Positions 2,830 through 25,112 of a DNA stretch of 35,663 nucleotides are shown piece after piece. The stretch's first letter is position 1. Each line of letters starts with the position of its first letter. Source of the stretch: Deltaproteobacteria bacterium (GTDB lineage: Bacteria > Desulfobacterota > Desulfarculia > Adiutricales > Adiutricaceae); contig JAISMU010000093.1 of NCBI GenBank assembly GCA_031276635.1, positions 1-35,663 of the forward strand, given 5' to 3'. The notes under the pieces are model-generated. The model did not search any database and had not been told where the DNA came from. It saw only the letters and a program-made list of their open reading frames with translations. Made by a program: the position numbers and the translations under genes.

Positions 2830-3755
2830 GGGGCCGACCGCCCGACTCGGGGGCCGACCGATTCCGGTTGGGGCTCTCCCCCAGGCTCAGAGGCTGGCTC
2901 ATCTGTTGGCTCCCCTGTTGGCTCGGGGCTGGCTTTCTCGTCGGCCTTTTCCGCTTTGGCCCTCGCCTCTTTTTCGTCCTCTTCTATTTTTTCATTTTCT
3001 AATTCTTCGGGTTCTTCGGGCTGGGGCTTGGGAACTAGAAATACGCTCAGCTCATAAAGAAGGCACAGGGTCCCGGCCAGAAAGCACTGGCTCACCGCGT
3101 CGGGCGGGGTCAGGATGGCCCCGATGACAAAAAAGGCGATGATGGCGTAGGGCCGGTATTTTTTGAGGGTTTGGGAGGTGATGAGGCCAATTTTGCCCAG
3201 AAACATCAGAATCAGCGGTAGTTGGAAGGCCAGGGCGAACACCAGGGTCAGGCCCATGACCAGGGAGAGGTACTGATCACCCGCCAGGAGCGGGCGGATG
3301 GTCTCGGAGCTGAACCCCAGAAAGAAGCGAAACGTCAGGGGCCAGACCAGAAAGTAGGCGAAACTGACCCCGGCCAGAAATAGAAAAAGGGCCAGAAAGG
3401 CCAGTCGGGGAACTCGCTTTCGCTCCGAGGGGTTGAGGCCCGGGGCGCAGAAAGCCCACAGCTCGTATAGCGATAAAGGCGAGGAGATCAGCAGCCCCGC
3501 CCACAGGCTGATCTTGAGGTTGAGGGTGAAGGCGTCCTGCAGGCCGAAAAACCGCAGGCTCTCCCCAGACGGCAGAAAGGCCAGGACCGGGTCCATCAGA
3601 AAATTCAAGATGGTCCCGGCTGAGGGCCAGGCTCCCAGAGTGGCCAGCAGGAGGCCGCCCAGAGCCACGAAGAGCCGGGCGCGCAGTTCCCTTAAATGGC
3701 CCAGAAAGCTGTCCGCCCTGGGGGACGAGGGGCTGGCGGGGGGAGCGTCAGGCAT
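2826..3755 (-). CDS. tatC: Sec-independent protein translocase subunit TatC, with long acidic C-terminal tail
   Basis: This 309-aa polytopic inner-membrane protein is the receptor for twin-arginine signal peptides. It shows the TatC hallmarks HLRELRARLF (residues 20-29), the second-helix block YELWAFCAPGLNPSERK (97-113), and LTPPDAVSQ (215-223) before the last helices. Six hydrophobic segments fall at about 28-45, 80-100, 117-140, 163-185, 201-215 and 222-241. I start it at ATG 3753-3755, 5 bp after the upstream stop. Longer frames upstream would overlap that gene and lack TatC homology. Residues 245-309 form an unusual acidic, Pro/Glu-rich tail with repeated GEP/EP units, absent from standard TatC of about 250 aa. 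No tatA or tatB lies in the window. Confidence 0.93.
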   Translation of the reverse strand: MPDAPPASPSSPRADSFLGHLRELRARLFVALGGLLLATLGAWPSAGTILNFLMDPVLAFLPSGESLRFFGLQDAFTLNLKISLWAGLLISSPLSLYELWAFCAPGLNPSERKRVPRLAFLALFLFLAGVSFAYFLVWPLTFRFFLGFSSETIRPLLAGDQYLSLVMGLTLVFALAFQLPLILMFLGKIGLITSQTLKKYRPYAIIAFFVIGAILTPPDAVSQCFLAGTLCLLYELSVFLVPKPQPEEPEELENEKIEEDEKEARAKAEKADEKASPEPTGEPTDEPASEPGGEPQPESVGPRVGRSAP

Positions 3756-3760
3756 GGTGG

Positions 3761-4501
3761 TCAGGGCCGGCGACCCTGGGCGGCGGCCTCGACCAGGGCG
3801 GTGAATAGGGCCAGCTGACGGGGGTCGGTTTTCACCAGATGCTCCGGGTGCCACTGCACGGCCAGGGCGAAGCTCTCGCCCTGGAGCTCCACCGCCTCGA
3901 CCACCCCGTCGGCGGCTAGGGCGCTCACCATCAGAGTCGGCGGCAGTCGGTCGGCGGATTGGTGGTGGAGGCTATTGACCAGGAGGGAGCTTTCGCCCAG
4001 GATGGCCCGCAGCCGACCAGGATTGAGGGTCACCTGGTGGGAGGGCCACTGGGCGGCCAGATTCTGGAAGTGGCGGATCTGTTTGGTTTTGGTGGCCCCC
4101 GAGAGGGAGACGTCCTGCCAGAGGGTCCCGCCTAAGGCCACCACTAAAAGCTGCAGGCCCCGACACAGCCCCAGAATGGGGACCCCCCGCTCCAGAGCCA
4201 GCTTGGTCAGCTGGATCTCAAAGCGGTCCCGTTTGGGACTCATGGGCCAAGTCTCGGTCAGGCCGCCCCAAGGCTCCTGGCGGTAGAGGCTGGGCAGGAT
4301 GTCCTGACCCCCGGAGAGCAGCAGGCCGTCAATGAGGCTCAGGTACTCCTCGTAGTGAGGGTAGGCGTCGTCGGCTGGCAGAAAAACCGGCAGTCCCCCG
4401 GCCCGCTCCACGGCGTCCGGGTAAGCCCGCCAGATTTCGTGCTGGCCGCGGGCCTCCTCTAAAGTGGTGGTAATGCCTACGCGCGGTCGAGTTCGAGTCA
4501 T
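3761..4501 (-). CDS. Class I glutamine amidotransferase-like hydrolase (peptidase C26 / PuuD family)
   Basis: This 246-aa cytosolic protein belongs to the gamma-glutamyl hydrolase / gamma-Glu-GABA hydrolase (PuuD-like) family. The N-terminus RVGITTT and the LLSGGQDILPSLY block (residues 61-73) are typical. The nucleophile is Cys113 in ILGLCRGLQLL, and the rest of the triad is His218/Glu220 in AVQWHPE. The SLHHQS motif (177-182) is also characteristic of the family. The substrate cannot be fixed from sequence; gamma-glutamyl conjugates are likely. A Shine-Dalgarno AAGG sits 6 nt before the ATG. The gene is 111 bp downstream of the UDG-like gene and 5 bp upstream of tatC, in the same direction. 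Confidence 0.88.
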   Translation of the reverse strand: MTRTRPRVGITTTLEEARGQHEIWRAYPDAVERAGGLPVFLPADDAYPHYEEYLSLIDGLLLSGGQDILPSLYRQEPWGGLTETWPMSPKRDRFEIQLTKLALERGVPILGLCRGLQLLVVALGGTLWQDVSLSGATKTKQIRHFQNLAAQWPSHQVTLNPGRLRAILGESSLLVNSLHHQSADRLPPTLMVSALAADGVVEAVELQGESFALAVQWHPEHLVKTDPRQLALFTALVEAAAQGRRP

Positions 4502-4612
4502 GATGAACCTTGGAAAAAAAGATAGAAAGCCAAGATAGCCGAGTCCTGAGAGATGAGCGCTCCCCGTGGGCCAGCGGGAGCTTTATTTTCCCCGCTCGCC
4601 GGTTAAGCCCGC

Positions 4613-5524
4613 CTAGGTCAGCCCGGCCAGGCGCATGGCCTTTTTGATGTCCCGCCAAGCCTCCGGCTTGAGCTCCGGCTCCTCCAGGATTGACCCCAGG
4701 CCCAGGGTGACCTGGAGGGGGATGGGTTGGAGGGGGGGAGGAAAATGTAAGAGAAAAGGGTTAGGCCTTAAAAAAAACATCTGCTTGTTGGTTTTCGTTA
4801 AAAGTTGGCCCGGGCCCACGCCCATAGCCAAAATGGCCCGAGGGTTGACCAGGGCGATCTCGCGCCAAATGATCTCCAGACAGGCGTTTTTGGCCTGACG
4901 CGGCCAGAACTCTAGATTCTGCAACGGGCATTTTAAGATGGTGGAGACGTAAGTCTTCTCCACCGCCAGCCCCAGGCCCAGGGTGATGATGTTGGTCAGA
5001 AGCTCCCCGGCGGGTCCGGCGGGCCAGTTTTCCTCGGTCAACGGCGGCTCCAGGACGATCATGAGGGGGGGATTGACCGCCCCCTGGCCAAAAGCCTTGC
5101 GGGGCCGGGCGAGGACGCAGGCCTGGCAACTCTGAGCGTAGGCTCGCAGCTCCTCCAGGTTGGTGACCCGGTCGAGATTGGGAACCGACTGGGCCCAGCC
5201 GTTGGAGGCTCGCGGCGGGGGCGGAGCGGCGGCGAGGGGTTGGGCCGGGGAGGGCGGGGGTGGGCTGGGCCCTTGACTGGTTGGCTGAGGGCTGGGCGGG
5301 GAGCCCGGTTCCAGGCGTCGAGCCGGGGCCGGCGGGGGCGAAGCCAGCCGCTCAAGTGACTCGGGGCGGGGCTGAGGGGTTGGAGTGGCGACTGACTCGG
5401 CCAGCTTAACCCCCAGATCGCCCAAGCCCAGCTCCTGGGCGTACTCCAGATAAGCTTGGGCCGCCTGAGCCAGCCAGAGAGGCTGGAGGAGGCGGTCAGG
5501 GTGGCTTGGCGGGGGCTCGGTCAT
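4613..5524 (-). CDS. Type-4-like uracil-DNA glycosylase superfamily protein with degenerate catalytic motifs
   Basis: This 303-aa protein has a proline-rich, low-complexity N-terminal third (about 45-110) and a C-terminal UDG-fold domain (about 118-302). Four cysteines have the spacing of the family-4/5 [4Fe-4S] site: Cys133-x2-Cys136 and Cys199-x15-Cys215 (ILKCPLQN, KNACLEI). The GPAGELLTNIITLGLGL segment (170-186) matches the family GRAGQLLxxxLxxxGL. However, the GEAPG-type catalytic motif reads VLEPPLTEE, and the HPS-type motif near the C-terminus is not present (about GLGSIL instead). It may bind DNA or an FeS cluster without base excision. Its ATG overlaps the stop of the PfaC-like gene (ATGA, 5521-5524), so it appears translationally coupled to the lipid synthase. 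GC-rich proline codons dominate the linker. Confidence 0.75.
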   Translation of the reverse strand: MTEPPPSHPDRLLQPLWLAQAAQAYLEYAQELGLGDLGVKLAESVATPTPQPRPESLERLASPPPAPARRLEPGSPPSPQPTSQGPSPPPPSPAQPLAAAPPPPRASNGWAQSVPNLDRVTNLEELRAYAQSCQACVLARPRKAFGQGAVNPPLMIVLEPPLTEENWPAGPAGELLTNIITLGLGLAVEKTYVSTILKCPLQNLEFWPRQAKNACLEIIWREIALVNPRAILAMGVGPGQLLTKTNKQMFFLRPNPFLLHFPPPLQPIPLQVTLGLGSILEEPELKPEAWRDIKKAMRLAGLT

Positions 5525-8500
5525 CGGAGGGCCACCGTGAAGTTGTCCACCTGATAGACCACCAGGTCATCGACCGACATCAGGCCGTTAAAGGTCAGGG
5601 CCCGGTTGTGGGGGTCAGTTTTGCTCACCAGCAGGCCCAGGCCCATCTTGAGGCTGGAAGGGGGGATCTGGCCTCGATAGAGCCAGCTGTGGGCTCGCCC
5701 CGGCGAGGGGGCGGCGAAGGAGCCGGCGTACTCTTCGGGCTGGCCGTTAAAATAGCGTTTGACGGCCAGGTATTTGGCGGCCTGGAAGAAGGCCTCCAGT
5801 CCCAGGGAGCCGGGCCAGACCGGATCCCCTGGAAAGTGGGCGGCGAAGAACCAGGCTTGCGGATTGATCCGGCTCTGGGCCCAGAGCCGGCGGGGGTCGG
5901 CCTCCTGGAGCTCCTCCAGCATGAGCCAGCGCCCCCGCGGCCAGGCCGGGCCCTGGGGGTAAGGCCGGGTCTGGGGGTGGGCTGGCGGTTTCAGGGCCCC
6001 TAAAAGGGCGCTGTCCGCCTGGAGGCCCCGTTGCCTCTGGAGGCTCTCAAGGCTAAAGAAACCGAAGTTGGTCTGGCCCTCATAGACCACCCGGGAGCCC
6101 AGGCTGGTGGCGAAGTCGTAGCGCTGGATGGCCATCTGACCTAGGGTGGAGGTTTTGGTCAGGGTCGCTCGGGTCACCAGCGGCTCTTGGGGGGCCCCAA
6201 TCTCCCGGGTGACCGTGGCCTCCCCGCCGAGGTTCCGAAAGTACATGGCCTCGTCAAACAACAGGGCCACCCCCATATAGGCTGACAGAAACCCGCAGGC
6301 CTGCAGGGCGATCTCGTTTAAGGCCGCGTAGGGCAGGCTCGGGCTCTGGCCCCCGGCCTGGCTCAACAGCCACTCCCGGCCCGGGGCCAGCGGGTTCCAG
6401 CTGGCCGTCACCGAGGTTTTCAGAGCCACCTGACCGACCTGGCCCTGGGTCACCTCGGCCTGGTCGAGGAAGTCGTAGGGGGCCCGCGGCAGCCGGGCCA
6501 CGTGGGCCCCCTCGTCAAATCGGCTGAAGAGGGGGCCGAGAGCGGCTGACATCCGCCCGGAGATGAGGGTGTTCAGGCGCTCCTTGTCAAAAAGCTGGCC
6601 CGTCTTGACCGGTCGCCGGGTTGAGGGCGGGGGGAGGCTAGCGGCGCGGGCGCTTGGGCGCGGGCCCGGTTTTTTGGCGGGACTGACCTGGGCCGGGCTT
6701 TTTTTCTGGTAATAGGCGCGCCACCGCTCGGCCAGTTCCTCGACCGGGACGCCGGCCAGGCGCAAACCGAGGTTGCGGACCTCAGCGATGGGGCGACCGT
6801 CAGCCCACATGATCGCCTCAGCTAGGGCGATGGGCTCCCGGTCCGGGCCCGGGCTGATCTGGAACTCTCGCGGGTGGATCTCGTAGGCCACCTGGCGGGT
6901 TCGCGGGGTGACCTGACCCCGGCACTTGAGGCTTTGGGCGGTCATCAGCGGGGGCTGCCAGACGGCCTGGGGGTTTGGGGTGACCCAGCCCAGGGTTAAA
7001 AGGTAGAGCCGCAGGGTCTGCAGGGCCGCGTCGTACATGAGGGTGCCAGGCATGACCTCGTCGCCGGGAAAGTGGGAGACCAGGCACCAGGAGTCGGGGT
7101 CGACCCGGGCCTCGGAGCGGATGAAGCCTCGGCCATAAATGCCCCCGGAGCGGGTGATCGCCGGAACCTCGTCAAACAGAGCCAGGCGCCCGGCGGGCAG
7201 AAGGGGCGAACGCGGCCGGAGCTCGGCGAAGCCCGGGCCCAGGGCGGCGTAGTCCCCCTCGCGCAGGGCCTGGGTCAGCTCGCGGGAGAAGGACTGGGGA
7301 CCGGGTCGGGCCCAACTCAGCTCCAACCCCGGGCTGGCCGCGGCCGGGCTGGGGGCGCCCGCCGGAAGACCTCGGCCGGACTCCAGGGCCGCCGGGGTGA
7401 AGAAGCCGGCTCGGCCCCCTCGCATGGTCAAAAGCGGCTCGCCGGCCACCGAGCCGTCAAAGTCGAAGCGGAACATCAGAGTCTCCCCGTGGTGGAAAAA
7501 ACGGGCGATTCGGATGTCATAGCGGGCCGTCTCTCCCACCCGGGGCAGATCCCTTAAAAAGACCACCTCGGCGTCCAGCAGCCGGTAGCGGGCCAGGCCC
7601 TTGGTGTTGAAGTCCGCCCCGAGATAAGCAGAGAGCAGTAAGTCGGCCTGGCCGGACTCAATGGCCAAGCCCGGGGAGATCCGGTTCGACTCCAGATACC
7701 AGTCCTCGGCCTGGATGTCCCGCTCGGTCACGATTCGGCCCGGGCCCAGGGATTTGGCCTGCCCCTCCAGAGCCAGGACCCTGTCCACCAGCATCAGGGG
7801 CTCGGCCGGCAAAAGGACCCGGGAGGGGTAGGAGTCGACTTCCCGGAACTCGGGGCCCAGAACCTTTTCAATGGAGCCGAGGGCGAACTCCAGGCAGTCG
7901 GCTCGGGAAAGAAGGACTTGGGTTTCCCCGGTGGGGGTTTTTTCCAGCGGGGCTGGCCCGACCGAGGGCTTGGCGGCGGGGGGCTTGGCGGTTCGGGCTG
8001 GTTCGGCCAGAGATGGCCCGGGCCGGATTGGGTCAGTCTGGGTTGGGTCAGGCCGGGATTGGTCGGTCCGTGAGGGGGCTGGTCGCGTTGGCTCCGGCTC
8101 GGTTTTCTGGGTCTGGCGGCCTAACCAGCCCAGGTAGTCGGCCTCGGGCTCCTCAGTTTTGCTGACCTCCGGCGGCTCCACCAGGGGAGTTGGCCAGTTG
8201 AGGGGAGGCGGGTCCAGGTTGATGGGGGCCAGAAATCGCGGGTCCGGCTCCGGCGAGGGTTGGGGTTGACCCCGCCAGGGATCCGGGATCTGGCCAAAGA
8301 GCCACAGTTCGGAGAGGAGGCGGGAAAGGCCGGCCCAGCCCTCGTCCACGGCGGTGGCGGCCAGACTCACGGCCAGGTGCGGTCGGTCGCCCAGGATGGC
8401 CCGGATGAGTCGGGTGGTCCCGCTGCCTGGCCCGATTTCGATAAAGTAGCGAACGCCGTCCAGGTAAGCCTGGTGGATGAGGTCGGGCCAGCGGTGGCCA

Positions 8501-11500
8501 GCGAGGGCCTGGTCGGTCAGGGACTGGGCCACCAGCTCTGGGGTGGGCTCGTAAGCTTTGGCCCAGGCCGCCGAATAGAGCCGGAGGCCGGGCCGGGGAA
8601 CCAAGGGGCGGAGGTGGAACTGGTAGTAGGCCTCCTTGACTGGGCCGACGGTGGGGGCGTGGACCGCCGCCACCTCCTCAATGGGAAAGAAGGGAGCCTC
8701 CAGAGCCTGAGCCAGGGCCGCCACCGCCTGCTCCTCCCCGCCCACGGTCACCTCCTCGCGGGTGTTGACGATCAGGATGTAGGCCCGGAAGCGCTGGGCC
8801 GGGGAAAGAGCCTCCAGGGCCTGACGGACAGTTTTTTCCGAGCGAGGGATGAGGCCGGCCACCCATTTCAAGGGTTTTTTGGCGGGCCAGTTCCAGTGGG
8901 TTCGGGGGGCGGCCAGCTCGCCAGCCAGATCCCGGGCGAAGAGCGGGGAGCTCATCAGATCTTGCAGCAGCTGGTCGCGGTCTGGCCAGAAACCCAGAGC
9001 CACCAGGCCGCTGGTTTCCCCCAGCGAGTAGCCCAGGGCGGCCTGAAAGGAGAGACCCAGGGATTCCAGGGCCCGGGTGGCCAGGAGCCCGAAGTTGACC
9101 TGGCCCAGGATAGCCTCCCGGCAGTTGGGTTTTTTGTGGGAGGGGGCCCAAAACAGCTCGCTCTGGAAGTGGGCCGCCGGATCCGCCACCTCGCTCTCCA
9201 GCTGGCTCATGACGTGGGGAAAAGCCAGGGCCAGACCTCGACCCAGGCCCTTGTAGGCCTGGCCGGAGCCGGGAAAGACCAGGGCCACCTCGCCCACCAG
9301 GGGCGTGGCGGGGGCCGGCAGGATCCGGGGTTTGAGGTCGCGGTCCTCTTCCCCGGCTAGGGCTTTCTTGAGGAGAGCGGCCAGCTCCCGACTGTCCCGG
9401 GCTTGCAGGGCCAGAGCCGGGGAGCCGGGCCGGCGCTGGTCCAGGGCCCAGAAGTCCCGGGTCAGAGCCCGGAGTTCCCGGTGGGGGCCGGCTTCCAGGA
9501 GGGCGCTCAACTGACTCAAACGCTCGGCCAAGGGCCACTCCGGGCTCTGGCGGCAGTAAAACCAAACATCGGGCCGGATGGGGTCCGGGGGCACGGTCAG
9601 GGTGTGGGGCTCGCGACCGGCCGCCTCGACCAGCTCATAGCCTGGCCCGGCCACCCGCCGCTCCTCCCCGGGGTTCTTTAGCCAATACACCAGGCCCCGC
9701 CCCCGCCCCAGGGGCCTTAAATGGTGGCGGAGGTAAAAGGCGTTGCGATTGAGGGTAAAGAGGCCGGACAATGGCCCCACCCGCGGCTCCGAGGCCCGGA
9801 TGGTCAGCGTCCCCAGGGGGGCGAGACGCTGGGCCGCCCGCGGGCCAGCCAGCACAATGATGGCCGCTCCCTCGACCCAGATGGTTCGGGGAGCCAGGTA
9901 GCCGGTCTTGGGGTCGCCAAAGGTGTCGACCACCCCGACCACGGCCAGGTCCAGATTGCCGGCCACCAGTTGCCGGGCCGCTTCCAACAGGGCCCGAAAT
10001 CCGCTGTCGCGCTCCTCGGAGAGGGTGAAGGCCGGCCCGCCGCTGCCCAGATAGCGGGCCAGGCGGCTGGCCACCAGCGACCCCAGGGCCCCCAGCACCC
10101 GACTGTGGGTCAGGGGAGCCGGGCCACCCGCCCGTAAACTCTCCACCAAAGCCGGAACCTCGACCGGGGTCAGGAGATTTTTGGCCACCAGAGCCTGGGC
10201 CGCCCGGAGCGGGGCGGTCCAGCGCAGGGCGTAGTCAGCCGCCCGGGGGTCAATTTCCACCCCCATGAAGACGCCCAGGCGGTCGCGGTCCAGAAAGTCC
10301 GGCCAGCTCTCGGGGGCGAGACCCGCCGCCTCCAGGGCGGCCACCCCGGCTTTGAGGGCCAGGGTCTGCTGGGGCAAAGCCTCAGCCAGCTCCTTGGGGG
10401 GCAGTTTTAAGGCGGCCACGTCCAGGGTTAGATCCTGGAAAAAAAAGCCCGTGGTCTTTAAAGCCCCCAGACGCCGGGTCTGAGCCATGGGCGGCTCCTC
10501 CGGGGTCAGCCAGAAGCGCGATAAGGTGTCATAGGAAGGCCAGGGGGCCAGCATGGTCCGGGCGGCGATGAGGGCCACCGAGAGGGGGGGCGACGGGGTC
10601 ACCCGCCGCCCGCGAGGCTTCTTTTTAGCCCAGAGATCGCTTTGATACTCCTCCAGCACGGCCTGGGCGTTGACTCCCCCGAAACCAAAGGCGTTCACCG
10701 CGGCCAGGCGGGCTAGGGGAGCCGGGTCGGGCCAGGGCTCGGCTTCGGTCAGCACCCGCAGGGCCGGCGGACTGGCCAGATCCTCGGCGCTCCTCTCAAA
10801 CCCGGCCGTGGGCGGGAGGATCTGTTTCTTGAGGGCCAGGGCGGTCTTGACCAGAGCCACCGCCCCGGCCGCTGAGAGCAGGTGCCCGACATTGCTTTTG
10901 ACCGAGCCCAGCACGGGGGCCCGGGTCAGCTTCTGGCCGCTCAGAAATTGCCGGATGGCCGCCACCTCGGCCCGGTCGCCCAGGATGGTCGAGGTCCCGT
11001 GGGCCTCAATGAGGCCCAGAGCCGTCGGGGAGCGGTTGGCCAGCTGGAAGGCCGTGGTCATGACTCGGGCCTGGCCCTCGGGGTCCGGGGCCAGAAGATT
11101 GCCGGTTCGGTCATTGCCCAGCCCCACCCCCAGCAGCAGGGCGTAGATCTCGTCCCCATCAGCCAGGGCCCGCTCCAGAGTTTTTAAGACGATGGCCGCC
11201 GCTCCAGAGCCGACCACCAGACCGTCAGCCCGGTGGTCGAAGGGCCGGCAGACCCCGGAGCGGGAAAGGGCCCGGAGCTGGCTGAAGCCCAGCTGGGTGA
11301 AAAGGGGATCGGCCTGAGCCAGACCGCCGGTGATGACGCAGGAGAGCTCGTCGTTGAAGAGTCGGTCCAAGGCCAGGCGGGCGGCGTAGAGGGAAGAGGC
11401 GCAGGCGGCGTCCACAGTGAAGGCTGGCCCGGTCAGCCCCAGGGCCCGGGACAGGAGCCGGGCCGAGTAACCCACCGCCCGAAAGGGGTTGGTCCGGGGC

Positions 11501-11985
11501 GGTTCGGGGAAAGGGTTAAGCGACCAGGCCCGGGTGGCCTCCCGGCCGTAGAGGGAGATGGCCGCCTCAGACTGGCCCCGGGTCGGGAGAATGACGTGGC
11601 CGGCGATGACCCCGACCCGGTCCGGCTCGTGGCCCGCCAGAACGCCGCCAGCCGTGGCCAGCCGCCCGGCTCGTAGCCAATAGAGTAAGGAGTCGTCGCT
11701 TTCCAGAGGATCAAAACTTGAGGGGAGTTTCAAGCCCGCCAGGGTCTCGGGCCCGGGCCGTTCCCCCAGCCAAGCCCCGGCCAGGCTATAGGCCTTGTCC
11801 AGGGCCGGGGGGTCAGCCGGGTCGTAAAAAAGCTCGGGGTCGGCCCCGAAGTCCCGGGGGGTGGCCGCCCGAAAGGCGGTTTGGCGGGCCAGGACCATTT
11901 CCCACAAAGCCTCCGGGCTGGCGGCCCCGGGGACCGCCAACCCCAGAGCCACCACGGCGGCGGCTTGGCGGGGGTCGCGTCTCAC
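5521..11985 (-). CDS. PfaC-like PUFA/lipid synthase subunit: KS-CLF-AT-DH-DH
   Basis: This 2154-aa iterative type I synthase is the second gene of the lipid operon. The KS domain (about 8-448) is intact: Cys195 in VDAACASSL, His329 in EAHGTST, His368 in KSNVGH. A chain-length-factor-like KS (about 500-720) has no Cys at the aligned position (FTLSEERDSG, Arg659 aligned). The acyltransferase (about 895-1230) is intact: FPGSGQ, Ser987 in GYSLGE, His1109 in VHAPT; it resembles PfaB-type AT. A Pro/Thr-rich linker (about 1236-1355) follows. Four hotdog units form two FabA-like dehydratases: 1385-1530 with 1590-1745 (His1638, HFPGDEVMPG), and 1830-1980 with 2015-2150 (His2050, HFPGDPVWPG). The start is GTG at 11983-11985, overlapping the upstream TGA (GTGA). 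Classic PfaC is KS-CLF-DH-DH, with AT in a separate PfaB; here the AT sits between CLF and DH. The product is unknown. Confidence 0.92.
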   Translation of the reverse strand: MRRDPRQAAAVVALGLAVPGAASPEALWEMVLARQTAFRAATPRDFGADPELFYDPADPPALDKAYSLAGAWLGERPGPETLAGLKLPSSFDPLESDDSLLYWLRAGRLATAGGVLAGHEPDRVGVIAGHVILPTRGQSEAAISLYGREATRAWSLNPFPEPPRTNPFRAVGYSARLLSRALGLTGPAFTVDAACASSLYAARLALDRLFNDELSCVITGGLAQADPLFTQLGFSQLRALSRSGVCRPFDHRADGLVVGSGAAAIVLKTLERALADGDEIYALLLGVGLGNDRTGNLLAPDPEGQARVMTTAFQLANRSPTALGLIEAHGTSTILGDRAEVAAIRQFLSGQKLTRAPVLGSVKSNVGHLLSAAGAVALVKTALALKKQILPPTAGFERSAEDLASPPALRVLTEAEPWPDPAPLARLAAVNAFGFGGVNAQAVLEEYQSDLWAKKKPRGRRVTPSPPLSVALIAARTMLAPWPSYDTLSRFWLTPEEPPMAQTRRLGALKTTGFFFQDLTLDVAALKLPPKELAEALPQQTLALKAGVAALEAAGLAPESWPDFLDRDRLGVFMGVEIDPRAADYALRWTAPLRAAQALVAKNLLTPVEVPALVESLRAGGPAPLTHSRVLGALGSLVASRLARYLGSGGPAFTLSEERDSGFRALLEAARQLVAGNLDLAVVGVVDTFGDPKTGYLAPRTIWVEGAAIIVLAGPRAAQRLAPLGTLTIRASEPRVGPLSGLFTLNRNAFYLRHHLRPLGRGRGLVYWLKNPGEERRVAGPGYELVEAAGREPHTLTVPPDPIRPDVWFYCRQSPEWPLAERLSQLSALLEAGPHRELRALTRDFWALDQRRPGSPALALQARDSRELAALLKKALAGEEDRDLKPRILPAPATPLVGEVALVFPGSGQAYKGLGRGLALAFPHVMSQLESEVADPAAHFQSELFWAPSHKKPNCREAILGQVNFGLLATRALESLGLSFQAALGYSLGETSGLVALGFWPDRDQLLQDLMSSPLFARDLAGELAAPRTHWNWPAKKPLKWVAGLIPRSEKTVRQALEALSPAQRFRAYILIVNTREEVTVGGEEQAVAALAQALEAPFFPIEEVAAVHAPTVGPVKEAYYQFHLRPLVPRPGLRLYSAAWAKAYEPTPELVAQSLTDQALAGHRWPDLIHQAYLDGVRYFIEIGPGSGTTRLIRAILGDRPHLAVSLAATAVDEGWAGLSRLLSELWLFGQIPDPWRGQPQPSPEPDPRFLAPINLDPPPLNWPTPLVEPPEVSKTEEPEADYLGWLGRQTQKTEPEPTRPAPSRTDQSRPDPTQTDPIRPGPSLAEPARTAKPPAAKPSVGPAPLEKTPTGETQVLLSRADCLEFALGSIEKVLGPEFREVDSYPSRVLLPAEPLMLVDRVLALEGQAKSLGPGRIVTERDIQAEDWYLESNRISPGLAIESGQADLLLSAYLGADFNTKGLARYRLLDAEVVFLRDLPRVGETARYDIRIARFFHHGETLMFRFDFDGSVAGEPLLTMRGGRAGFFTPAALESGRGLPAGAPSPAAASPGLELSWARPGPQSFSRELTQALREGDYAALGPGFAELRPRSPLLPAGRLALFDEVPAITRSGGIYGRGFIRSEARVDPDSWCLVSHFPGDEVMPGTLMYDAALQTLRLYLLTLGWVTPNPQAVWQPPLMTAQSLKCRGQVTPRTRQVAYEIHPREFQISPGPDREPIALAEAIMWADGRPIAEVRNLGLRLAGVPVEELAERWRAYYQKKSPAQVSPAKKPGPRPSARAASLPPPSTRRPVKTGQLFDKERLNTLISGRMSAALGPLFSRFDEGAHVARLPRAPYDFLDQAEVTQGQVGQVALKTSVTASWNPLAPGREWLLSQAGGQSPSLPYAALNEIALQACGFLSAYMGVALLFDEAMYFRNLGGEATVTREIGAPQEPLVTRATLTKTSTLGQMAIQRYDFATSLGSRVVYEGQTNFGFFSLESLQRQRGLQADSALLGALKPPAHPQTRPYPQGPAWPRGRWLMLEELQEADPRRLWAQSRINPQAWFFAAHFPGDPVWPGSLGLEAFFQAAKYLAVKRYFNGQPEEYAGSFAAPSPGRAHSWLYRGQIPPSSLKMGLGLLVSKTDPHNRALTFNGLMSVDDLVVYQVDNFTVALR

Positions 11986-14900
11986 TGGGTTGGGCCCCTC
12001 TGGTAGGCGGTTAGGGCCGCCAGGTTGGTGCCCTGACCCAGGACGACCACCTCAGCCGGATCCCCCACCGGGGAGCGAATGAGGCGGACAAAGGTCTCCA
12101 CCCCCTCCTCAAGGCCGATGAGGCCCACCCCCTCGCCCAGGAACTGCCCGGCCAAGGACTCGCTGACCATCCCGGCGGCCCAGGGTCCCCAGTTAACGGC
12201 CAGGACCCGGGCCTGCGGGTGCAGCGAGGTCAGCTCCCAGGCGGTCTTGTTTAAGACCTCATTGCCGGCGGCGTAGTCACTCTGGCCCTGCCGCCCGAAG
12301 CGGGCGGTGGAGGAGCTGAAGAAGACCACCAGCTTCAAAGGCTCGGGCTGAAAGGCCTCCAGGAGGTGGGCGGCGATCTGGGTCTTAGTGGCGTAAACCC
12401 GGGCGAAGTCCTCGTGGCTCTTGCCTAAAATAGGATGGTCAGCCAACACCCCGGCCCCGTGAATGAAGCCCCGGATGGGCCCGAAGCGGCTGCGGACGCG
12501 GCGGGCGGCGGTTTCGACCACCTGGGGTCGGGTAAAGTCGCCAGGCAGGTACTCCACCTGGGCCCCGGTGGCTTCCAGTTCCGCTAGATTGCGCCGGAGC
12601 TCCCGGGTGGAGAGGATCAGCCGGGCCCGCTCCCCCAGCTCCCGGGGGGTCAGTTGGGAGCCAGAGGCCTGGTGCAGGGCGGCCTTGATGTCCCGGTCCT
12701 CGGTCAGCTCGGCCAGCCAGGGCGGCTCGGGCGGCCCCAGAGGGGTCCGCCCCAGAATGACCAGGCGGGGCTGAAATAGCCGGCCCATCTCTTTCATGAC
12801 CGCCGCTGTCACCCCTCGACCGCCCCCAGTGACCACCACGGTGTCGCCCGGGCTCAGTAAGGGCTCCGGGCTCTCCCGGGGCCAGTAGGGTTTGAGAGTT
12901 AACTGGGTCGGTCGGTCAATGGCGGCCAGGCCCAGCTCCACCGGCCCGGGGGCGGCCGCGTTTTCCAGAATGGCCGCGATCCAGTTGGGGTGAGGCATCT
13001 CGTAGACGGCCAGTGGCAGATCCAGGGCTCGCGTGGAGACGCCGGGCCATTCCCTGGCGGCGCACTTCAAGAGACCCACCAGGGCCCCGGAGATGGAGTT
13101 ACCCTGGGTCACGCCCTCGGCCGGTCGCGGAAACCCGAAAGCCCCCCCCAGGAAACTGAGACCCACAATGGCCTTGAGACTGGGGCCGCAGATTTCCAGG
13201 GCTTTCAGGGCCTGGGTGATGATCTGGGGGCCCCGGTCCGGGCCGGGCCAGACCAAAAATAAGAGGTCCGCTGGCCGCTCGCGCCAGGCCTCAAAGTCGT
13301 CTCGCCAAGACCGGCGCTCTACCTCAAAGCCCCGGGCCCGCAGCTCCTTGGCCAGAGACTGGGTTAAGCTGTCCGAGCCGACCAGCCGGGCCAGGCCCTG
13401 GCTGGGCCAAGGACTGGGGCCGGTTTCCATGGGCACGAACTCCGGTTCCACGTGGAAGAGGCTGGGTCTCTCCCGGCGGTGGGCCAGAGCCTGATCCAGG
13501 AGGGCCCGACCATTGCCTTTGCCTTGCCCATTGCCGCCCGCCGGGCCGGTTTGGGGCGAGATAGGCTGGTTGGGGCTAGGTTGGTTAAGGCTAGGCTGGG
13601 AGGGGCTGGTCTGGGCCGGGTCAGTCTGGGTAGAGTCTGTTTGGGGTCGGCTCAAGACGCTTTCCTCCCCGAACAAAGCCAGCCAGTCCCCCAGAGTCTC
13701 GGCCGCGGCCAGGTTGGCCTGGCCGGTGGTCGAGAGCCTGGGAAGTTTTTCGGCCAAGGCGGAAAGGATTTCGACTCTTTTGATAGAATCCAGGCCCAGG
13801 TCAGCCTCCAGGCTCATGTCCGGGGTCAGGAGCTCCACCGGGTAACCGGTCTCTTGAGCCACCACGGCCAGAGCCACCGCCGGGCCATCAGGCTCGGACG
13901 CCGCGAGGGGGCGGGCGGAGTCAGCTTGGGCTCCCCGCCCCGCGGCTGGCGAGGAAGAGGTTGGGGCCGCTGGTTGAGGCAGGAGCTTGGCCAGTTCCCC
14001 AATGGTGGTCGCGCCCGAGAGAGCGGCGGGGTCGAGGCTGGGGAGGCACTCCGAGAGGGTTGAGAAGATCTCGACGCGTTTGATGGAGTCCAGGCCCAGG
14101 TCGCTTTCCAGGTCCATGTCCAGCTGGAGGCTCTCAGCCGGGTAGCCGGTCTCCTGGGCCAGAACCTCAATGAGGGTCTGGCCAGGGTCAGGGCTAGCCT
14201 GGACAGGGCTAGTCTGGGTGGGGCTGTTTTGACCGTCTCCCGCCGCCTGGGCTTTGAGCTGTTGGTTCCCACCCGATCGCGGTGGGCTGACCTGGCCCTG
14301 ACATAGTTGAGCCAGCTCCCCCAAGGTTCGGGCCTGACTTGGGCTTTGACTGGCGCTCAGGGCCGGGAAACGCTCGGTTAGGGCGGACAGGAGCTCAACG
14401 CGCTTGATGGAGTCCAGGCCCAGGTCCTCCTCCAGGCTCATGTCCCGGTGGAGGGAGTCCGCCGGGTAGCCGGTCTCGTGGGCCAGGATTTCGATCAGCT
14501 GGGGCCAGACCGCTGGCTCGGACTCGGGGGCGGTCGGGGCCAGGTGAGGGTGGGCTAAACCAGTTGGGGCCAAATTAGTTGAGGTCCGGCTCGACCGGGC
14601 AAGGTTGGCCTGGTTTGGCGAGGTGGTCGGGCTCAGGGCGGTTTGGTCTGATTCGGCCAGGGGAGCCAGCGGGACGGTCAGGGGGGAGCCAGCGGCCCGG
14701 GCCAGGCGTGTTTCCTGGGCCAACTCTTTGAGGGCGGCCAAGGATTGTTTTTGCAGATCCACCAGCTCGCGGAGAGTCTCCCCCGCCAGCGTCTCGCTCG
14801 CCCGGGCCGCGGGAGTCGCCGGGTTCGGGGAGCTGGCCAGGGTCTGGGAATCAGCTGGGGTATTGGGCTGGGCGGCGATTTCTTGGTTGCGCCGGGCGCG

Positions 14901-17528
14901 GTAAAGGTTGGAGCCGGTCAGGTAAACCAGGTGGCTCTGGGGGGTCGGGCTGGGCGTCAGGCTCGGTAAAGAATGGCGGGGCCACTGGCTCAGATCCAGC
15001 TGAAGGCCGCGTTTCATCAGCTCAGCCGCGATCTGGCCCAAGGCGGCCACAGACCAGGGGCCGCTCGCCAAGCCCAAGGCCTTGGACTTGGGGAGACCTT
15101 CGGGGTAGGAGCCGATGACCAGGTAAGTGGTCTTCGGCTCAGAGCCCGACTCGGTTGGCCAGTTCGGGGGAGGCGAGGCGGGGTTTTCCAGGATCTTGCT
15201 CAAGGCGGCCTGAAAAGTCTCCAGGCTGGTGATGGCCTGGCCCTCAAAGAACAGGGGCGCGCGGGGCTCAACCCAAGTCAGGCTCTGGAAAAATTGGAAG
15301 ACTTTTTCTAAAAGAGCCCTAGCCCGGGCGTCTGGTCGAGGCTTGGGGCTGGCGGGCAACGAATTTTGGCTGGCGTGGCGTTTCGACTGGCCCGCGGTCG
15401 ATTTGGCTGGTTTGGGCTTGGCCCGTTTGGCCTCGCCCAGCTCCCGGGGACAATCGTTGATGGCTAGAGCCAGACAGATCGCGTCTTCCAGGGTGAGACA
15501 CCCGGCCAGAAAAGCGGCGGTCAGAAAGCCCGTCCCAAAGCCGGTCACCGCCTCCCAGGGTTGGCCTAGGGAGTCCCATAAGGCCCCCTGGGCCAGGCTG
15601 AGGACAAGGCCTAGGCTGAGCGTGAGCTCCTGAGGGCATGACCTTGGATTGGCGGCCAGTTGGGGCGGAAAGAGAATCTGGCCGAGGGGCCAGGGGGAAA
15701 GGGCGCTGGCTAAGTCCAGAACTCCCTGAAAGGCCGGAAAAGCCAAGGTCAGTTCCCGACCCAGATTGGCCGAGAAAGCCGGAGGGCCGCAGATGAGCCG
15801 GGTGGGTTGAGGCTGATCATTGGGCCCGGCCCAGCGAGCGACGGTCGGCCAGGCTTGGCTGGCCGAGCTGGCCTGAAGCTGTTTTTCTACCTCAGGCCAG
15901 CTGGCTCGCAGTTCCGCGAAGGAGCCGGTCAGGGCCAGGCGATAGGGGGCAGTGGCCTGAAAAGGCTCCGCCCGGGCCAGCCGGTCCAGCTCCTGGGCGT
16001 CCTGAGCCAAAGCCAGGGCCGCCACTCGGGGGGCCAAGCTGGCGGGCTCCAGGCTGGATAGGGCGATCAGGTGACAGTCGGCCTCGTCCAGGGGTTTGGG
16101 CGTCGGGCTCTCTTCCAAGAGGCAATGAAAGTTGGAGCCGCCAAACCCGAACGAAGAGACCGCCCCCCGCCGGGGGTGGTCCCCTTGAGCCAGCCAAGGC
16201 CGGGCCTCCACGTTGAGGTACAGGGGCGAATCCTTCTCCCGCAGGGGGGGCAGGGGCAGGCTGGCTTTGATGGACGGCGGCAGGACCTTGTGATAGAGGG
16301 CCAGGATGACCTTGATTAAGCCCGCCGCCCCGGCCGCCGCCTTGGCGTGGCCGATCTGGGACTTGATGGAGCCCAGGGCGCACCAGGAGTCCGCCCGGTC
16401 GGCCGGCCGATGGGCGCCGAAGAGCTCGCTCAGGGCGGCCAGCTCCGAACCGTCCCCGGCCTGGGTTCCGGTGCCGTGGCCCTCGACCAGCTCCACCGTG
16501 GCCGGGGAGAAGCCAGCCTCCCGATAGGCGGCCTCCATGGCTCGCCGCTGCCCCTGGGGGCTGGGCGCGAAAATCGAGGAGCCGCGACCGTCACTGGAGC
16601 CGCCCAACCCCCGGATGACCGCGTAGATCCGGTCCTGGTCCCGGCGGGCGTCCGAGAGGCGCTTGAGGATGAGGACCCCCAGACCCTCGCCCAACAAAGT
16701 CCCGTCAGCCGCCTGGTCAAAGGGTCGGGCCTCCTCTGTGGGGGAGAGAGCCGGGGTCTTGCAGAAACAGGTGAACATGAAGGGGTCAGTGAAGGTGTCC
16801 ATGCCTCCGGCCACCACCAGGTCTGAGCGACCCGAGCGTAACTCCAGCATAGCCTGGCCCACGGCGGCTAAGGAACTGGCGCAGGCGGCGTCAACCACCA
16901 GGTTGGCCCCCCCCAGGTTCAGGCGATTGGCCAGGCGACCGGCCACCACATTGCCCAAAAGCCCGGGAAACGAGCTCTCGCGCCAGGGGGCGAACTCCTC
17001 GCCGAAACGCTCCAGAACCTCGGCGATGAGGTCCTCGTTGAGCCCACTTCGCGCCAAAGCCCGGCGGACCTGGGGATAGGCCTGACGCGAGCTCATGTGG
17101 CCCAGCATTTCCAGGCCCCCGGTCACGCCCATGATGACGGCGGTGCGGGAGTGGTCCGAGCGGTCAGCCGGGTAGCCCGCGTCGGTCAAGGCGGCGTCGG
17201 CCACCACCAGGCCCAGCAGCTGGGCGCTGTCAATGGTCTCCAGGTCGCGGGGGGCTACTCCGAACTTGAGGGGATCAAACGGGGTCGGGGACAAGAAAGC
17301 TCCCCGGCGGCAGTACATCCGGTCCCGGGCTTTGGGGTCGGTGTCGTAGTAGTCGCTGGGATTGAAGCGGTCCAAGGGTATATCGGTGATGGTGTCCAGG
17401 CCCCGCTTGATGGTGGACCAGAACCCGGCCAGCCCCGGCTGGCCGGGAAAAAGGGCGCCCAAACCGATGACGGCCACGGCCTTATTTTGGTCTGGAGAAT
17501 CCAATTTTGTCTCTAACTCGTAGGTCAT
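11982..17528 (-). CDS. PfaA-like PUFA/lipid synthase subunit: KS-(dead AT)-ACPx3-KR
   Basis: This 1848-aa megasynthase is the first gene of the lipid operon. The KS (about 17-475) closely follows the PfaA pattern, including DxYYDxD and MYCRRGAFL, with Cys216 (DAACASSL), His351 (GHGTGT) and His394 (SQIGHAKAAAG). An AT-like region (about 575-700) is short and reads GFGTG at 663-667 where GHSxG is expected, so the catalytic Ser is missing. Three ACPs carry identical LGLDSIKRVE phosphopantetheine motifs (Ser1040, Ser1148, Ser1248). The C-terminal ketoreductase (about 1370-1790) has TGGGRGVTAA for NADPH and a Ser-Tyr-Asn site with Tyr1752 in SDYAAGN. I start at ATG 17526-17528: AGGA precedes it by 5 nt, and the protein then begins like PfaA. 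An in-frame extension to 17741 lacks homology. The host PPTase and any enoyl reductase must be elsewhere. Confidence 0.92.
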   Translation of the reverse strand: MTYELETKLDSPDQNKAVAVIGLGALFPGQPGLAGFWSTIKRGLDTITDIPLDRFNPSDYYDTDPKARDRMYCRRGAFLSPTPFDPLKFGVAPRDLETIDSAQLLGLVVADAALTDAGYPADRSDHSRTAVIMGVTGGLEMLGHMSSRQAYPQVRRALARSGLNEDLIAEVLERFGEEFAPWRESSFPGLLGNVVAGRLANRLNLGGANLVVDAACASSLAAVGQAMLELRSGRSDLVVAGGMDTFTDPFMFTCFCKTPALSPTEEARPFDQAADGTLLGEGLGVLILKRLSDARRDQDRIYAVIRGLGGSSDGRGSSIFAPSPQGQRRAMEAAYREAGFSPATVELVEGHGTGTQAGDGSELAALSELFGAHRPADRADSWCALGSIKSQIGHAKAAAGAAGLIKVILALYHKVLPPSIKASLPLPPLREKDSPLYLNVEARPWLAQGDHPRRGAVSSFGFGGSNFHCLLEESPTPKPLDEADCHLIALSSLEPASLAPRVAALALAQDAQELDRLARAEPFQATAPYRLALTGSFAELRASWPEVEKQLQASSASQAWPTVARWAGPNDQPQPTRLICGPPAFSANLGRELTLAFPAFQGVLDLASALSPWPLGQILFPPQLAANPRSCPQELTLSLGLVLSLAQGALWDSLGQPWEAVTGFGTGFLTAAFLAGCLTLEDAICLALAINDCPRELGEAKRAKPKPAKSTAGQSKRHASQNSLPASPKPRPDARARALLEKVFQFFQSLTWVEPRAPLFFEGQAITSLETFQAALSKILENPASPPPNWPTESGSEPKTTYLVIGSYPEGLPKSKALGLASGPWSVAALGQIAAELMKRGLQLDLSQWPRHSLPSLTPSPTPQSHLVYLTGSNLYRARRNQEIAAQPNTPADSQTLASSPNPATPAARASETLAGETLRELVDLQKQSLAALKELAQETRLARAAGSPLTVPLAPLAESDQTALSPTTSPNQANLARSSRTSTNLAPTGLAHPHLAPTAPESEPAVWPQLIEILAHETGYPADSLHRDMSLEEDLGLDSIKRVELLSALTERFPALSASQSPSQARTLGELAQLCQGQVSPPRSGGNQQLKAQAAGDGQNSPTQTSPVQASPDPGQTLIEVLAQETGYPAESLQLDMDLESDLGLDSIKRVEIFSTLSECLPSLDPAALSGATTIGELAKLLPQPAAPTSSSPAAGRGAQADSARPLAASEPDGPAVALAVVAQETGYPVELLTPDMSLEADLGLDSIKRVEILSALAEKLPRLSTTGQANLAAAETLGDWLALFGEESVLSRPQTDSTQTDPAQTSPSQPSLNQPSPNQPISPQTGPAGGNGQGKGNGRALLDQALAHRRERPSLFHVEPEFVPMETGPSPWPSQGLARLVGSDSLTQSLAKELRARGFEVERRSWRDDFEAWRERPADLLFLVWPGPDRGPQIITQALKALEICGPSLKAIVGLSFLGGAFGFPRPAEGVTQGNSISGALVGLLKCAAREWPGVSTRALDLPLAVYEMPHPNWIAAILENAAAPGPVELGLAAIDRPTQLTLKPYWPRESPEPLLSPGDTVVVTGGGRGVTAAVMKEMGRLFQPRLVILGRTPLGPPEPPWLAELTEDRDIKAALHQASGSQLTPRELGERARLILSTRELRRNLAELEATGAQVEYLPGDFTRPQVVETAARRVRSRFGPIRGFIHGAGVLADHPILGKSHEDFARVYATKTQIAAHLLEAFQPEPLKLVVFFSSSTARFGRQGQSDYAAGNEVLNKTAWELTSLHPQARVLAVNWGPWAAGMVSESLAGQFLGEGVGLIGLEEGVETFVRLIRSPVGDPAEVVVLGQGTNLAALTAYQRGPTQ

Positions 17529-17791
17529 GCTGATCCTGGGTTTTGGAAAATGAGAGGCGTAAGGCGACCAGAGACCCTGACCACAGCCTCGCGTCAAGGG
17601 CGGCCAAACCATAAAAAACCGGCCCGGCCAGCCAGCCGAGGTTAATCTGGGTAACCTCCGGCGCGAGGTCGGCTCGGGCGCTTCCGCGGCCCCTGGAGGC
17701 CGGATCCTGGGTTGATCCAGGGGGGTAAAGCCCAGGATCAAGGAACTTTAAGACAATTAGCTATATTGGCACAAACGAGCTGATTTTTCAA
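17529..17791 (-). promoter_or_regulatory. Leader of the lipid-synthase operon: possible promoter and repeats complementary to the ribosome-binding site
   Basis: Read on the minus strand, a weak promoter candidate is TTGAAA (17791-17786), 17 nt, then CAATAT (17768-17763); the -10 match is poor. Downstream, the transcript would contain UGAUCCUGGG (17740-17731), then CCCAGGAUC (17711-17703), and finally CCCAGGAUCA (17540-17531), which includes the AGGA Shine-Dalgarno 5 nt before the pfaA-like ATG. The first element is a perfect 10-nt complement of the RBS copy and also pairs with the middle copy, so mutually exclusive helices are possible. The repeats are seen directly; regulation is inferred. 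Confidence 0.35.
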
Positions 17792-18219
17792 CGGCTCTTT
17801 GGGCGTTTTGGGGCAGGAACAAGGAGCGGGGCGACCGCGGGGCGGCTCAGTTCGAAAAAAGCCGGGTCAACGGACCCTAGGCGCGGCCAGGGCCCAGCGG
17901 CGGCGGCGATTAGCCACCTGGCCGGTTTGAAATCAGGCCAGGGGCCAGTTGACTGGCGGTTAGCCAAATATTCGCTCCAACGCGAACTACCGCGGAGGGA
18001 ACCCCCACTCGTCAGAGGTCTAAATTGGGCTGATGGTTGGGGGAGTGTCTTTGGGGGAACATGTCTTCTTTGGGGGAACAATCATTGGCCTTGGGTGAAA
18101 ATCATTATGAGAAAAACTTTATTAAAACAGAAAAATATGAAATATTTGAAAAAATCAATATCTTTTATTGGTAATAAGATGGTGAGTCTTAGCCCTGAAA
18201 TCAGCTCCTGAGCTCCTCC
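17792..18219. other. Intergenic region with a short direct repeat, no recognised gene
   Basis: The part to about 18000 is GC-rich and the rest AT-rich. Frames in either strand (for example 18081-17788 minus and 17927-18211 plus) show no recognisable domain. A 14-bp direct repeat, TCTTTGGGGGAACA, occurs at 18048-18061 and 18067-18080 (19-bp period). Confidence 0.4.
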
Positions 18220-18263
18220 GCGGCCGGGCCGCCGCTAATTTAAAGAAACAAGTTTGTTTCATT
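18220..18263 (+). repeat. Dispersed dyad repeat, copy A
   Basis: This is nearly the same as 20829-20876; a 24-bp core (18227-18250) is identical to 20841-20864, and the following TTTGTTTCAT is also shared. It contains a GC-rich palindrome (GCGGCC G GGCCGC, 18220-18232) and an operator-like dyad GAAACAA-GT-TTGTTTC (18245-18260). A third dyad, GTTTCAT-TAG-ATGAAAC (18256-18272), overlaps its right end. No gene follows this copy. Confidence 0.8.
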
Positions 18264-18716
18264 AGATGAAACCAGGTCAGATTTGGGAAATCCTGGGGTC
18301 AGGCCCGCGTCAACCGGCAAGAGGCGACGGCGGCGGAGGTTTGGGGGTCAGAGAAAATTGGTCTGTTTAACGTGAAACAAAAATTAAAATTTACAAGATC
18401 AAAAAGTGAATTTTTGGCCGACAAAAACATCAGATTCGCCAGTTGAGACCAAGGTCGTGAGAGTAACAAAAACCAGGCTTGTTCTCTTTGTCCACCTAAT
18501 TGGCTTCATTGCTATGTTTTGACAACTTTTTACCAAATTAGGTTATTAATTAATCGTGTTTCAATAGTATTTTAAATCTTATTTACCCACGTTTCATGTT
18601 TTATAAAAACAATTGGCTCAGATTTGACGAGGTCAGCGGAGATTAGGCTGGTCTTAGGAAGTTCGCGACGTCACGATAAATTTCCGGCGTAACTTGTTGA
18701 TGAAAAAATGATCGAT
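18264..18716. other. Mixed-composition intergenic region, no gene
   Basis: I see no coding region or RNA gene. The stretch becomes AT-rich after about 18360 and carries several GTTTCA/TGAAAC words (about 18268, 18372, 18559 and 18591) that recall the half-site of the adjacent repeat. It ends at the 3' limit of the IS701 relic. Confidence 0.5.
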
Positions 18717-19976
18717 TCACGTCATCAAGATGGGTCGCCGCCAAGCGGGCCAACTTCTCGCGTCACAACGTTTCATCCCAAGATAATCATCACCGTCTCT
18801 GAAACAGTCTTCCATCGACCAGCGGAGAAGAGAGAGTTTGCGCGGGTTATCAATTGGGGCCTCCATTGACTCGTTACCCAAGGCGTATTTTCTGGATTTG
18901 TCGTCCAACCCTCTCAGGCGCGACCAGACGTCTTGACCAGGGTCGCCATCTCGGCCCTCGACCCCAATAAGGCGTTTATCCCTCAAGATGACCGGACCTT
19001 AAGCGCCTTGGCCAAGGACAACAACATTCCAGGGAACCGCTTGTCATTGGCGAAGTCTTTTAACACTTCGATTCAGCGCGATGGCGACAGGATATTTCGG
19101 TTTTCTCCCTCGGCCACAATATTTTCAGGAAAGTAAATAGGTTCGGCTCTCAAACACTTGAGTGTTGAAAGGCGCGGCGGCCAAGAATACAAGCCCTTCA
19201 GGCAGGGAGACCAAAAATTTATAGTCTCAACCAACGGCTTCGTCCAGGCCGATATATTTGGCTTTAAGGTTTCCTGAGGCGATCGCTTTATGAATCATCT
19301 CCAAAAGAAGCTCGGTTGTCTTAATTTCCAGGTCCTCGGGCGCCTGGTTCTTTTCGAGTAATTTCTGATGACTGCTGTCAAGCCAATTGTCAGGCAGGTA
19401 AAGCTCATAGTCAAAAAGGCCATGACCCATTGGACTCGCGTAGCCAAGCCTGACGTAGGCCTGGCAATTTACGGTTTTCCCAAGCCTGAGACAGAATTGT
19501 CTGGCTATTCCAATGGAGCTTTGCCCACATTTGAGGAAATAGAGTTCGTCCCCGGTGATCCTTCCCTCAGGCTGAGAAAGGAAATCCCCCAAATTCTTCT
19601 GGTAGATCTTTAACGCGCCTTGGTCGTCTCACCCAGACCTGGTCAGGAAATTATGAAAATTCCGGATCTCTTTATTATCCGCGAAAGTTGAGCGGATTCT
19701 TCTGAGTGTTTTACTCTTAAGGTCACTCAATAAACCCTTGGCCATCGCGACAAAGTGAGGGAGAGTCTCTTTGCGGTTTAAAGACGACGTAAAAAACCGA
19801 AGGTGGTCCATAAGCTCAATTTTTAAGATCTCCTGGTTGGCGCTAAATTTGTCGCAATCATCCAATAAACCCTTGGGGAAGGTGGGAACGCTACCAATTA
19901 AGGTCAGAATCTCCCGCCGCTCATTTGGCGGGCGGCTGAGGTCTGGGCGAAATTGATAAGAAAAGCGACGATTCAC
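18717..19976 (-). pseudogene. Decayed IS701-family transposase (C-terminal portion of a DUF4338-transposase fusion)
   Basis: Three minus-strand segments align in order with an IS701/DDE_5-type transposase. Segment 19976-19629 is the N-terminal region, with LPHFVAMAKGLLSDLKSKT and FHNFL like the family's GLLSxLERKS..LQxFLS. Segment 19592-19227 contains SSIGIARQFCLRLGKTVNCQ, YELYLPDNWL and YIGLDEAVG, matching the family SVGVARQYCGRLGKxxNCQ, LYLPxxW and the second acidic catalytic region. Segment 18986-18717 has YALGNESMEAPID and RWSMEDCF...LGMKRCDARSWPAW, matching YxLSNAPxxTPL and RWxIExxFxxxKxxLGxxHYExRSWxGW. Stops and frame changes separate the segments, so it is dead. It continues upstream in frame into the DUF4338 relic. 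Confidence 0.85.
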
Positions 19977-19979
19977 GCC

Positions 19980-20735: not shown

Positions 20736-20748
20736 AATAGGTTACAGG
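20720..20748 (+). promoter_or_regulatory. Candidate sigma70 promoter for the DUF1703 gene
   Basis: A perfect TTGACA (20720-20725) is followed by 17 nt and TACAGG (20743-20748), a poor -10. If used, the transcript would start near 20756 and its leader would contain the dyad repeat (20829-20876) before the ATG at 20893. Confidence 0.35.
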
Positions 20749-20828
20749 TAGATGTAAGTAGTTATTTTTTTCATCTAATCGGCGCCTCCCCTGAGATCTC
20801 TCAAAAGGTTGGCGATCTGCGCACCTCT

Positions 20829-20876
20829 GCGGCCGGGGACGGCCGCCGCTAATTTAAAGAAACAGATTTGTTTCAT
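20829..20876 (+). repeat. Dispersed dyad repeat, copy B, in the leader of the DUF1703 gene
   Basis: This is the second copy of the repeat at 18220-18263, in the same orientation. It has a 7-bp GC stem with a GGGA loop (GCGGCCG...CGGCCGC, 20829-20846) and a GAAACA-N4-TGTTTC dyad (20859-20874), ending 16 bp before the start codon at 20893. Compared with copy A the loops and dyad spacers differ, yet both inverted repeats are kept. Confidence 0.8.
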
Positions 20877-20892
20877 AGAAGAGACTTGGGTA

Positions 20893-25041: not shown

Positions 25042-25070
25042 TTGACGAGAGGGGAGGTCTGGGGTAAAAT
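25042..25070 (+). promoter_or_regulatory. Sigma70-type promoter of the metG operon
   Basis: TTGACG (25042-25047), a 17-nt spacer, then TAAAAT (25065-25070): five of six matches to each consensus element with optimal spacing. Transcription would start near 25077, leaving a leader of about 127 nt before the metG ATG. Confidence 0.7.
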
Positions 25071-25112
25071 AATAAAGTTATTTTTAACGCCGGGGTCGAG
25101 GCTTGCTCAAGG

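Follow-up and report, generated by a model that had tools for sequence, protein, structure and literature searches.

Two adjacent minus-strand genes at positions 5521–17528 of the window (the whole stretch of DNA analysed, 35 663 nt, which is one contig in full, from an assembly of 3.48 Mb and 94% completeness) form, as judged from sequence, a real and well-conserved Pfa (PUFA-type) lipid synthase. This synthase comes from an uncultured deltaproteobacterium with relatives in termite guts. We think it probable that the complete system is a pfaD–pfaA–pfaBC synthase of the Pfa type, in which pfaD belongs to a piece of the genome missing from the assembly, the MAT domain of PfaA persists as a dead scaffold, and FabD and a PPTase act in trans.

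Isolate prefixes of two sister genomes, Kf353 (G005) and Gx485 (G002), match those of other bins described as derived from two lower termites, Kalotermes flavicollis and Glyptotermes (PMC11707648). Termites are already known to harbour Desulfobacterota of the Adiutricaceae (PMC9137090), the family in which the window may fall. The locus would place PUFA-type, oxygen-independent lipid synthesis in uncultured termite-gut bacteria; the part of the termite-gut literature that was covered contains no account of a PUFA-type synthase for these organisms.

Gene and domain structure of the locus

The pfaA-like gene (11982–17528, minus strand) encodes 1848 aa from ATG 17528 with the domain order KS-pseudoMAT-ACPx3-KR; Pfam profiles recover the KS, three PP-binding domains and the KR. 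The pfaBC-like gene (5521–11985, minus strand) encodes 2154 aa with the order KS-CLF-AT-DH-DH. Its GTG start overlaps the pfaA stop in the GTGA at 11982–11985, and an overlap of the same kind, ATGA at 5521–5524, links the pfaBC-like frame to the next gene. While the mechanical ORF of the pfaA-like gene reaches TTG 17741, ATG 17528 makes a more convincing start, with AGGATC in front of it. An earlier sequence-only reading of the window had given this architecture, with the same order, coordinates, strand and GTGA overlap, and all of these hold.

Both reading frames are intact, and the proteins share ~56–73% identity with those of other species of the genus. The length of the frames (1848 and 2154 aa) and their conservation across the genus argue that the locus is not a product of chance.

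In the first protein the KS (16110–17500, a Pfam match) has the active-site motif DAACASS at 16892. The three tandem ACPs (13750–14500) each carry LGLDSIKR, with serines at about 14411, 14087 and 13787, and the KR (11990–12850; Pfam KR, 7e-32) has TGGGRG at 12830 and YAAGN near 12275. In the second protein DAACASS is found at 11412 within the KS (10600–11970); the CLF (9600–10580), as aligned to PDB 6RIW, has no catalytic Cys and contains TLSEERDS near 10030, a motif that is near-invariant within the genus. Two FabA-like dehydratases complete the protein: DH1 (6750–7920; Pfam FabA) with HFPGDEVMPG...D at 7074 and DH2 (5530–6600; FabZ/FabA matches) with HFPGDPVWPG...E at 5838, both motifs being conserved. 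All these domains are encoded on the minus strand. With the exception of the MAT, all catalytic motifs of the two proteins are present.

The locus thus combines a PfaA-class KS, tandem ACPs and a KR with a PfaC-class KS-CLF and a FabA-like DH pair, the features of the Pfa class; the second protein, with KS-CLF-AT-DH2 on one polypeptide, has the make-up of the pfaBC-fusion subtype. The pfaA-like protein matches TIGR02813 (omega_3_PfaA) with an E-value of 2.8e-288 and 959.8 bits, just under the curated cut-off of 1010. Residues 9–691 of the pfaBC-like protein are covered, in a sequence match, by 6RIW (deposited as ORF10), which we take to be Moritella PfaC. The TIGR02813 match, the Pfam domains and the KS tree described below all agree with the previous description of the locus as a PUFA-synthase-like lipid megasynthase.

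The MAT domain of PfaA and the loading of the ACPs

The region of the KS-AT linker and the decayed MAT (14790–16109, minus strand) has no Pfam Acyl_transf_1 match. GFGTG at 15542 replaces GHSxG, in keeping with the degenerate AT proposed earlier, and the domain lacks its downstream half together with the catalytic His. The sequence-only reading marked this domain by an asterisk alone; the dead MAT is the real peculiarity of the locus. None of the 13 PfaA proteins of the termite-gut clade that extend over this position retains the MAT serine, the catalytic His is likewise missing wherever it could be checked in the clade, and the GHSxG position is occupied in relatives by GFGSG, GDLLG, CLGSG, GFGQG, GFGAG and others. 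The motif is intact (GHSYG or GHSFG) in PfaA of Riflebacteria, Azospirillum and Persicobacter. Identity to sister species is 29–45% in the MAT versus 75–84% in the KS.

The predicted fold of the MAT region is still AT-like and matches KS-AT didomains. By this resemblance of the model the pseudo-MAT was ruled out as unrelated filler. The PfaA MAT looks like a catalytically dead domain kept as a scaffold, as far as the predicted structure can tell.

The usual view of PUFA synthases is that each extender unit depends on the PfaA MAT, and an active MAT is typical of the characterised members, although the class is not defined by it. A clade that retains a PUFA synthase with a dead PfaA MAT poses a sharper question than the absence of an enoyl reductase, and it is this clade-wide inactivation that deserves to be pursued.

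The search for Acyl_transf_1 proteins recovered a single one in the genome: FabD, intact, carrying GHSLGE, Arg and GAFHS. Since the MAT is dead, the PfaB-type AT of the second protein has no malonyl-binding Arg and FabD is the sole malonyl transferase found, malonyl would be loaded in trans, and FabD is the most likely candidate for placing it on the ACPs. For the termite-gut lineage as a whole, we give about an even chance to the idea that, in the anoxic gut, the MAT serves as a non-catalytic scaffold and the ACPs are loaded in trans by the housekeeping FabD. Trans-AT polyketide synthases likewise have a core with no working extender AT and a separate transferase that loads it, a likeness of idea only; unlike them, the enzyme here is of PUFA type and its candidate transferase would be the housekeeping FabD.

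The AT of the second protein (8221–9339, minus strand; GYSLGE at 9033, VHAP at 8664) had been called PfaB-type, and both profile and structure uphold this. It matches TIGR02816 (pfaB_fam) with 67.5 bits, under the cut-off of 144, and its AlphaFold model (pLDDT 88.6) has the Shewanella PfaB crystal structure 9RY8 as its best PDB match (TM 0.82). The residue before the Ser is Tyr (His in one relative). As no other AT of the two proteins is intact, this domain could have taken over malonyl loading beside its PfaB-like role, in which case no FabD in trans would be needed. We consider this unlikely: the domain has GYSLG and not GHSxG, PGSG and not PGQxQ, and no conserved Arg at Ser+25. Such AT motifs are likewise reported for PfaB, its best structural match, and S. 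baltica PfaB shows no detectable malonyl-CoA transfer (PMC12895367).

Under the favoured reading, loading by FabD, the steps of synthesis would follow the roles assigned in characterised Pfa systems (PMC12895367, PMC6731297). An Sfp-like PPTase would activate the three ACPs, and FabD would then malonylate them. The KS, the KR and the two DHs would build the acyl chain on the tandem ACPs, with the KS-CLF of PfaBC extending the chain and governing its length. PfaD, acting in trans, would reduce selected enoyl intermediates, and the DH pair could leave and shift double bonds. Finally, the PfaB-type AT of PfaBC may function as a terminal long-chain acyltransferase that off-loads the chain. By analogy, the default expectation for the product is an unsaturated (polyunsaturated or otherwise) long-chain acyl lipid. 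A putative Sfp/HetI-like PPTase, a candidate for the PfaE role, is encoded by a 240-aa ORF on another contig of the same genome.

The enoyl reductase gene and its neighbourhood

The sequence-only reading had suggested searching the genome for two genes, of which the Sfp-like PPTase was located, elsewhere in the genome, and PfaD was not: the TIGR02814 profile search gave no candidate in the whole assembly. As that reading had stated, the window has no pfaD either; tblastn with PfaD of five relatives had a best E-value of ~1, which also rules out a pfaD remnant in the window.

As a trait of the system, though, the lack of an enoyl reductase did not stand, since each of the six other genomes in the genus has pfaD (above the TIGR02814 cut-off in five; in the sixth the gene is truncated where a contig stops). 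In G001, G002, G003, G004 and G006 it lies upstream of pfaA on the same contig, ~0.6 to 6 kb away, with inserted genes in the wider intervals. In G005 pfaD is on a different contig, ~1 kb short of its end, and points the way it should if that contig adjoins the one with pfaA. Beyond the genus, where distribution was assessed by one scan of genome contigs and on plasmids, pfaD is upstream and co-oriented at four loci (L038, L041, L045 and L046) and in Riflebacteria (L047); the ~4 kb that could be read upstream at L037 and at L040 did not show it.

In two sister genomes pfaD is divergent from hrcA-grpE-dnaK, at a distance of ~0.4 kb in G002 and ~1.1 kb in G001. These neighbours are missing from the window's assembly as well. 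A controlled genus-wide search found hrcA in six of six sister genomes versus none here, and the assembly has no ortholog of dnaK, a gene present in all six sisters, whose orthologs share 92–94% identity with the query from G002. Because loss of dnaK is implausible, the whole hrcA-grpE-dnaK-pfaD block was probably left unassembled or unbinned. An assembly or bin gap is, on this sequence evidence, the likeliest cause of the absence of pfaD, and we infer that the gene lies in the unassembled part of the genome. The argument from linked absence uses synteny in two genomes and contig-end evidence in the others. The absence of an enoyl reductase is thus not supported as biology.

In the window's contig, metG-trkA-trkH follows pfaA across a 7-kb stretch rich in mobile elements (17742–25100), whereas the metG cluster is located elsewhere in G001, G002 and G005, which makes the pfaA-metG junction specific to the present contig. 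Either pfaA and pfaD were separated here by a rearrangement, or the contig was misjoined at repeats or mobile elements.

The same stretch offers an argument for a true loss of pfaD. The position that pfaD has in relatives is taken up by remnants of IS701, a gene similar to AAA-ATPases and an element with inverted repeats, after which comes metG, and the assembly-wide TIGR02814 search was empty. Insertions would then have replaced pfaD, and the remnant synthase would make a polyene or hydroxylated lipid or use the enoyl reductase of FAS-II. We regard this as distinctly unlikely, given that hrcA and dnaK, the neighbours of pfaD in sister genomes, are missing too and that pfaA and pfaBC are still intact.

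Several features of the mobile-element-rich stretch can be described separately. Broken minus-strand fragments similar to IS701 transposases lie at 18717–19976, with related broken fragments at L018:1033–3108; they relate to a 691-aa protein made of a Druantia DruA-like N-terminal domain and an IS701 transposase, of which G005 carries an intact copy. The AAA-ATPase-like ORF (PF09820) upstream of pfaA occupies 20809–22986, and a distant relative of it is situated between pfaA and pfaD in G002. The inverted-repeat element at 23852–24566 is MITE-like (~715 bp, with 30-nt terminal inverted repeats that are 93% complementary). GC content falls to ~20–36% at this element and to 17% in an adjoining AT-rich stretch, the contig being otherwise near 45–70%. 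Genes similar to cytosine-5 methyltransferases are found between pfaA and pfaD in G001 (L015:3128–4054) and, away from this stretch, near the edge of the window at 164–1108; the two are only 28% identical.

On the other side of the locus, after pfaBC, the region 2185–5524 of the window carries genes for a uracil-DNA glycosylase and a glutamine amidotransferase, then tatC and mobA, with some overlapping starts. The order of the glycosylase gene, tatC and mobA is kept in five sister species, and the amidotransferase gene was seen in two. These genes may be co-transcribed.

Relation to known synthases

In a KS tree of 48 rows, which was taken without Shewanella, Geobacter and Desulfatibacillum sequences, the first KS falls in a clade (100/100) with PfaA of Persicobacter, Azospirillum and Riflebacteria, and the second in a clade (100/99) with 6RIW and the second-protein KS of the same three groups. 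In each of the two KS groups a separate clade with a long stem unites the termite-gut sequences. Two findings had been named beforehand as speaking against an undescribed system, a pfaD gene just outside the operon and a placement of the KS domains with Pfa; both are largely what the relatives show.

The sequence-only reading had considered the system rearranged and undescribed, with an AT inserted into a PfaC-like protein. This placement of the AT is already known as the pfaBC fusion (PMC3098273, PMC6731297). A 2011 catalogue lists fusions of the form KS-CLF-AT-DH2 for Types C and D and also records pfaBC fusions in Types H and I; Type D pfaBC synthases have characterised EPA/AA products (PMC3098273). 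Myxobacterial Pfa3, with the order KS2-CLF-AT2-DH2-DH3, yields DHA or arachidonic acid in yeast (PMC6731297). The fusion was also observed in plasmid-borne clusters of Azospirillum and Persicobacter.

Deltaproteobacterial hosts and a pfaBC fusion are shared by Type C (Desulfatibacillum alkenivorans) and Type I (Geobacter and others) (PMC3098273). Type C has in common with the termite-gut relatives both the KS-CLF-AT-DH2 fusion and a separate pfaD (PMC3098273); by the published description, its pfaD is at the 3′ end, whereas in the relatives pfaD is 5′ of pfaA. Type D (EPA/AA) and the Persicobacter cluster (L139) resemble the present system in having KS-CLF-AT-DH-DH in one protein, KS-MAT-ACPn-KR and PfaD. 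In Type D, however, pfaA is split in two, and the Persicobacter cluster differs by an intact MAT (GHSYG), five ACPs and a 3′ pfaD. Myxobacterial Pfa1-3 (Aetherobacter, Minicystis) share an AT2 in Pfa3 and an ER on a separate protein (PMC6731297), but their Pfa3 contains an AGPAT and their Pfa2 a DH1, neither of which was seen in the locus. The plasmid cluster of Azospirillum lipoferum 4B (L138) has the same domain order and the same gene order, pfaD-pfaA-pfaBC; its MAT is intact (GHSFG), and its second protein is only about 33% identical.

HglC, too, is a KS-CLF-AT fusion (PMC3098273), so the locus could be read as a heterocyst-glycolipid or other PKS-type enzyme and not one of PUFA type. We find this improbable. 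Type F, the heterocyst-glycolipid class, has KS-CLF-AT without DH/I domains (PMC3098273), and the enzyme here has two FabA-like DHs; the tandem ACPs, the TIGR02813 match, the grouping of the second KS with that of 6RIW and the presence of pfaD in relatives speak against it as well. Decay into a non-functional PUFA synthase, for which one could cite the dead and diverging MAT and the flanking mobile elements, is very improbable, as neither frame is broken and every other catalytic motif is in place, the KS and KR are 75–84% identical to those of sisters, and the MAT loss is common to the whole clade, which implies that the enzyme persisted long after it.

A modular-type PKS unrelated to the Pfa locus was observed in G003 (contig C19, L016:6505–16364), with an AT-KS-DH-KR-ACP protein and a second KS protein.
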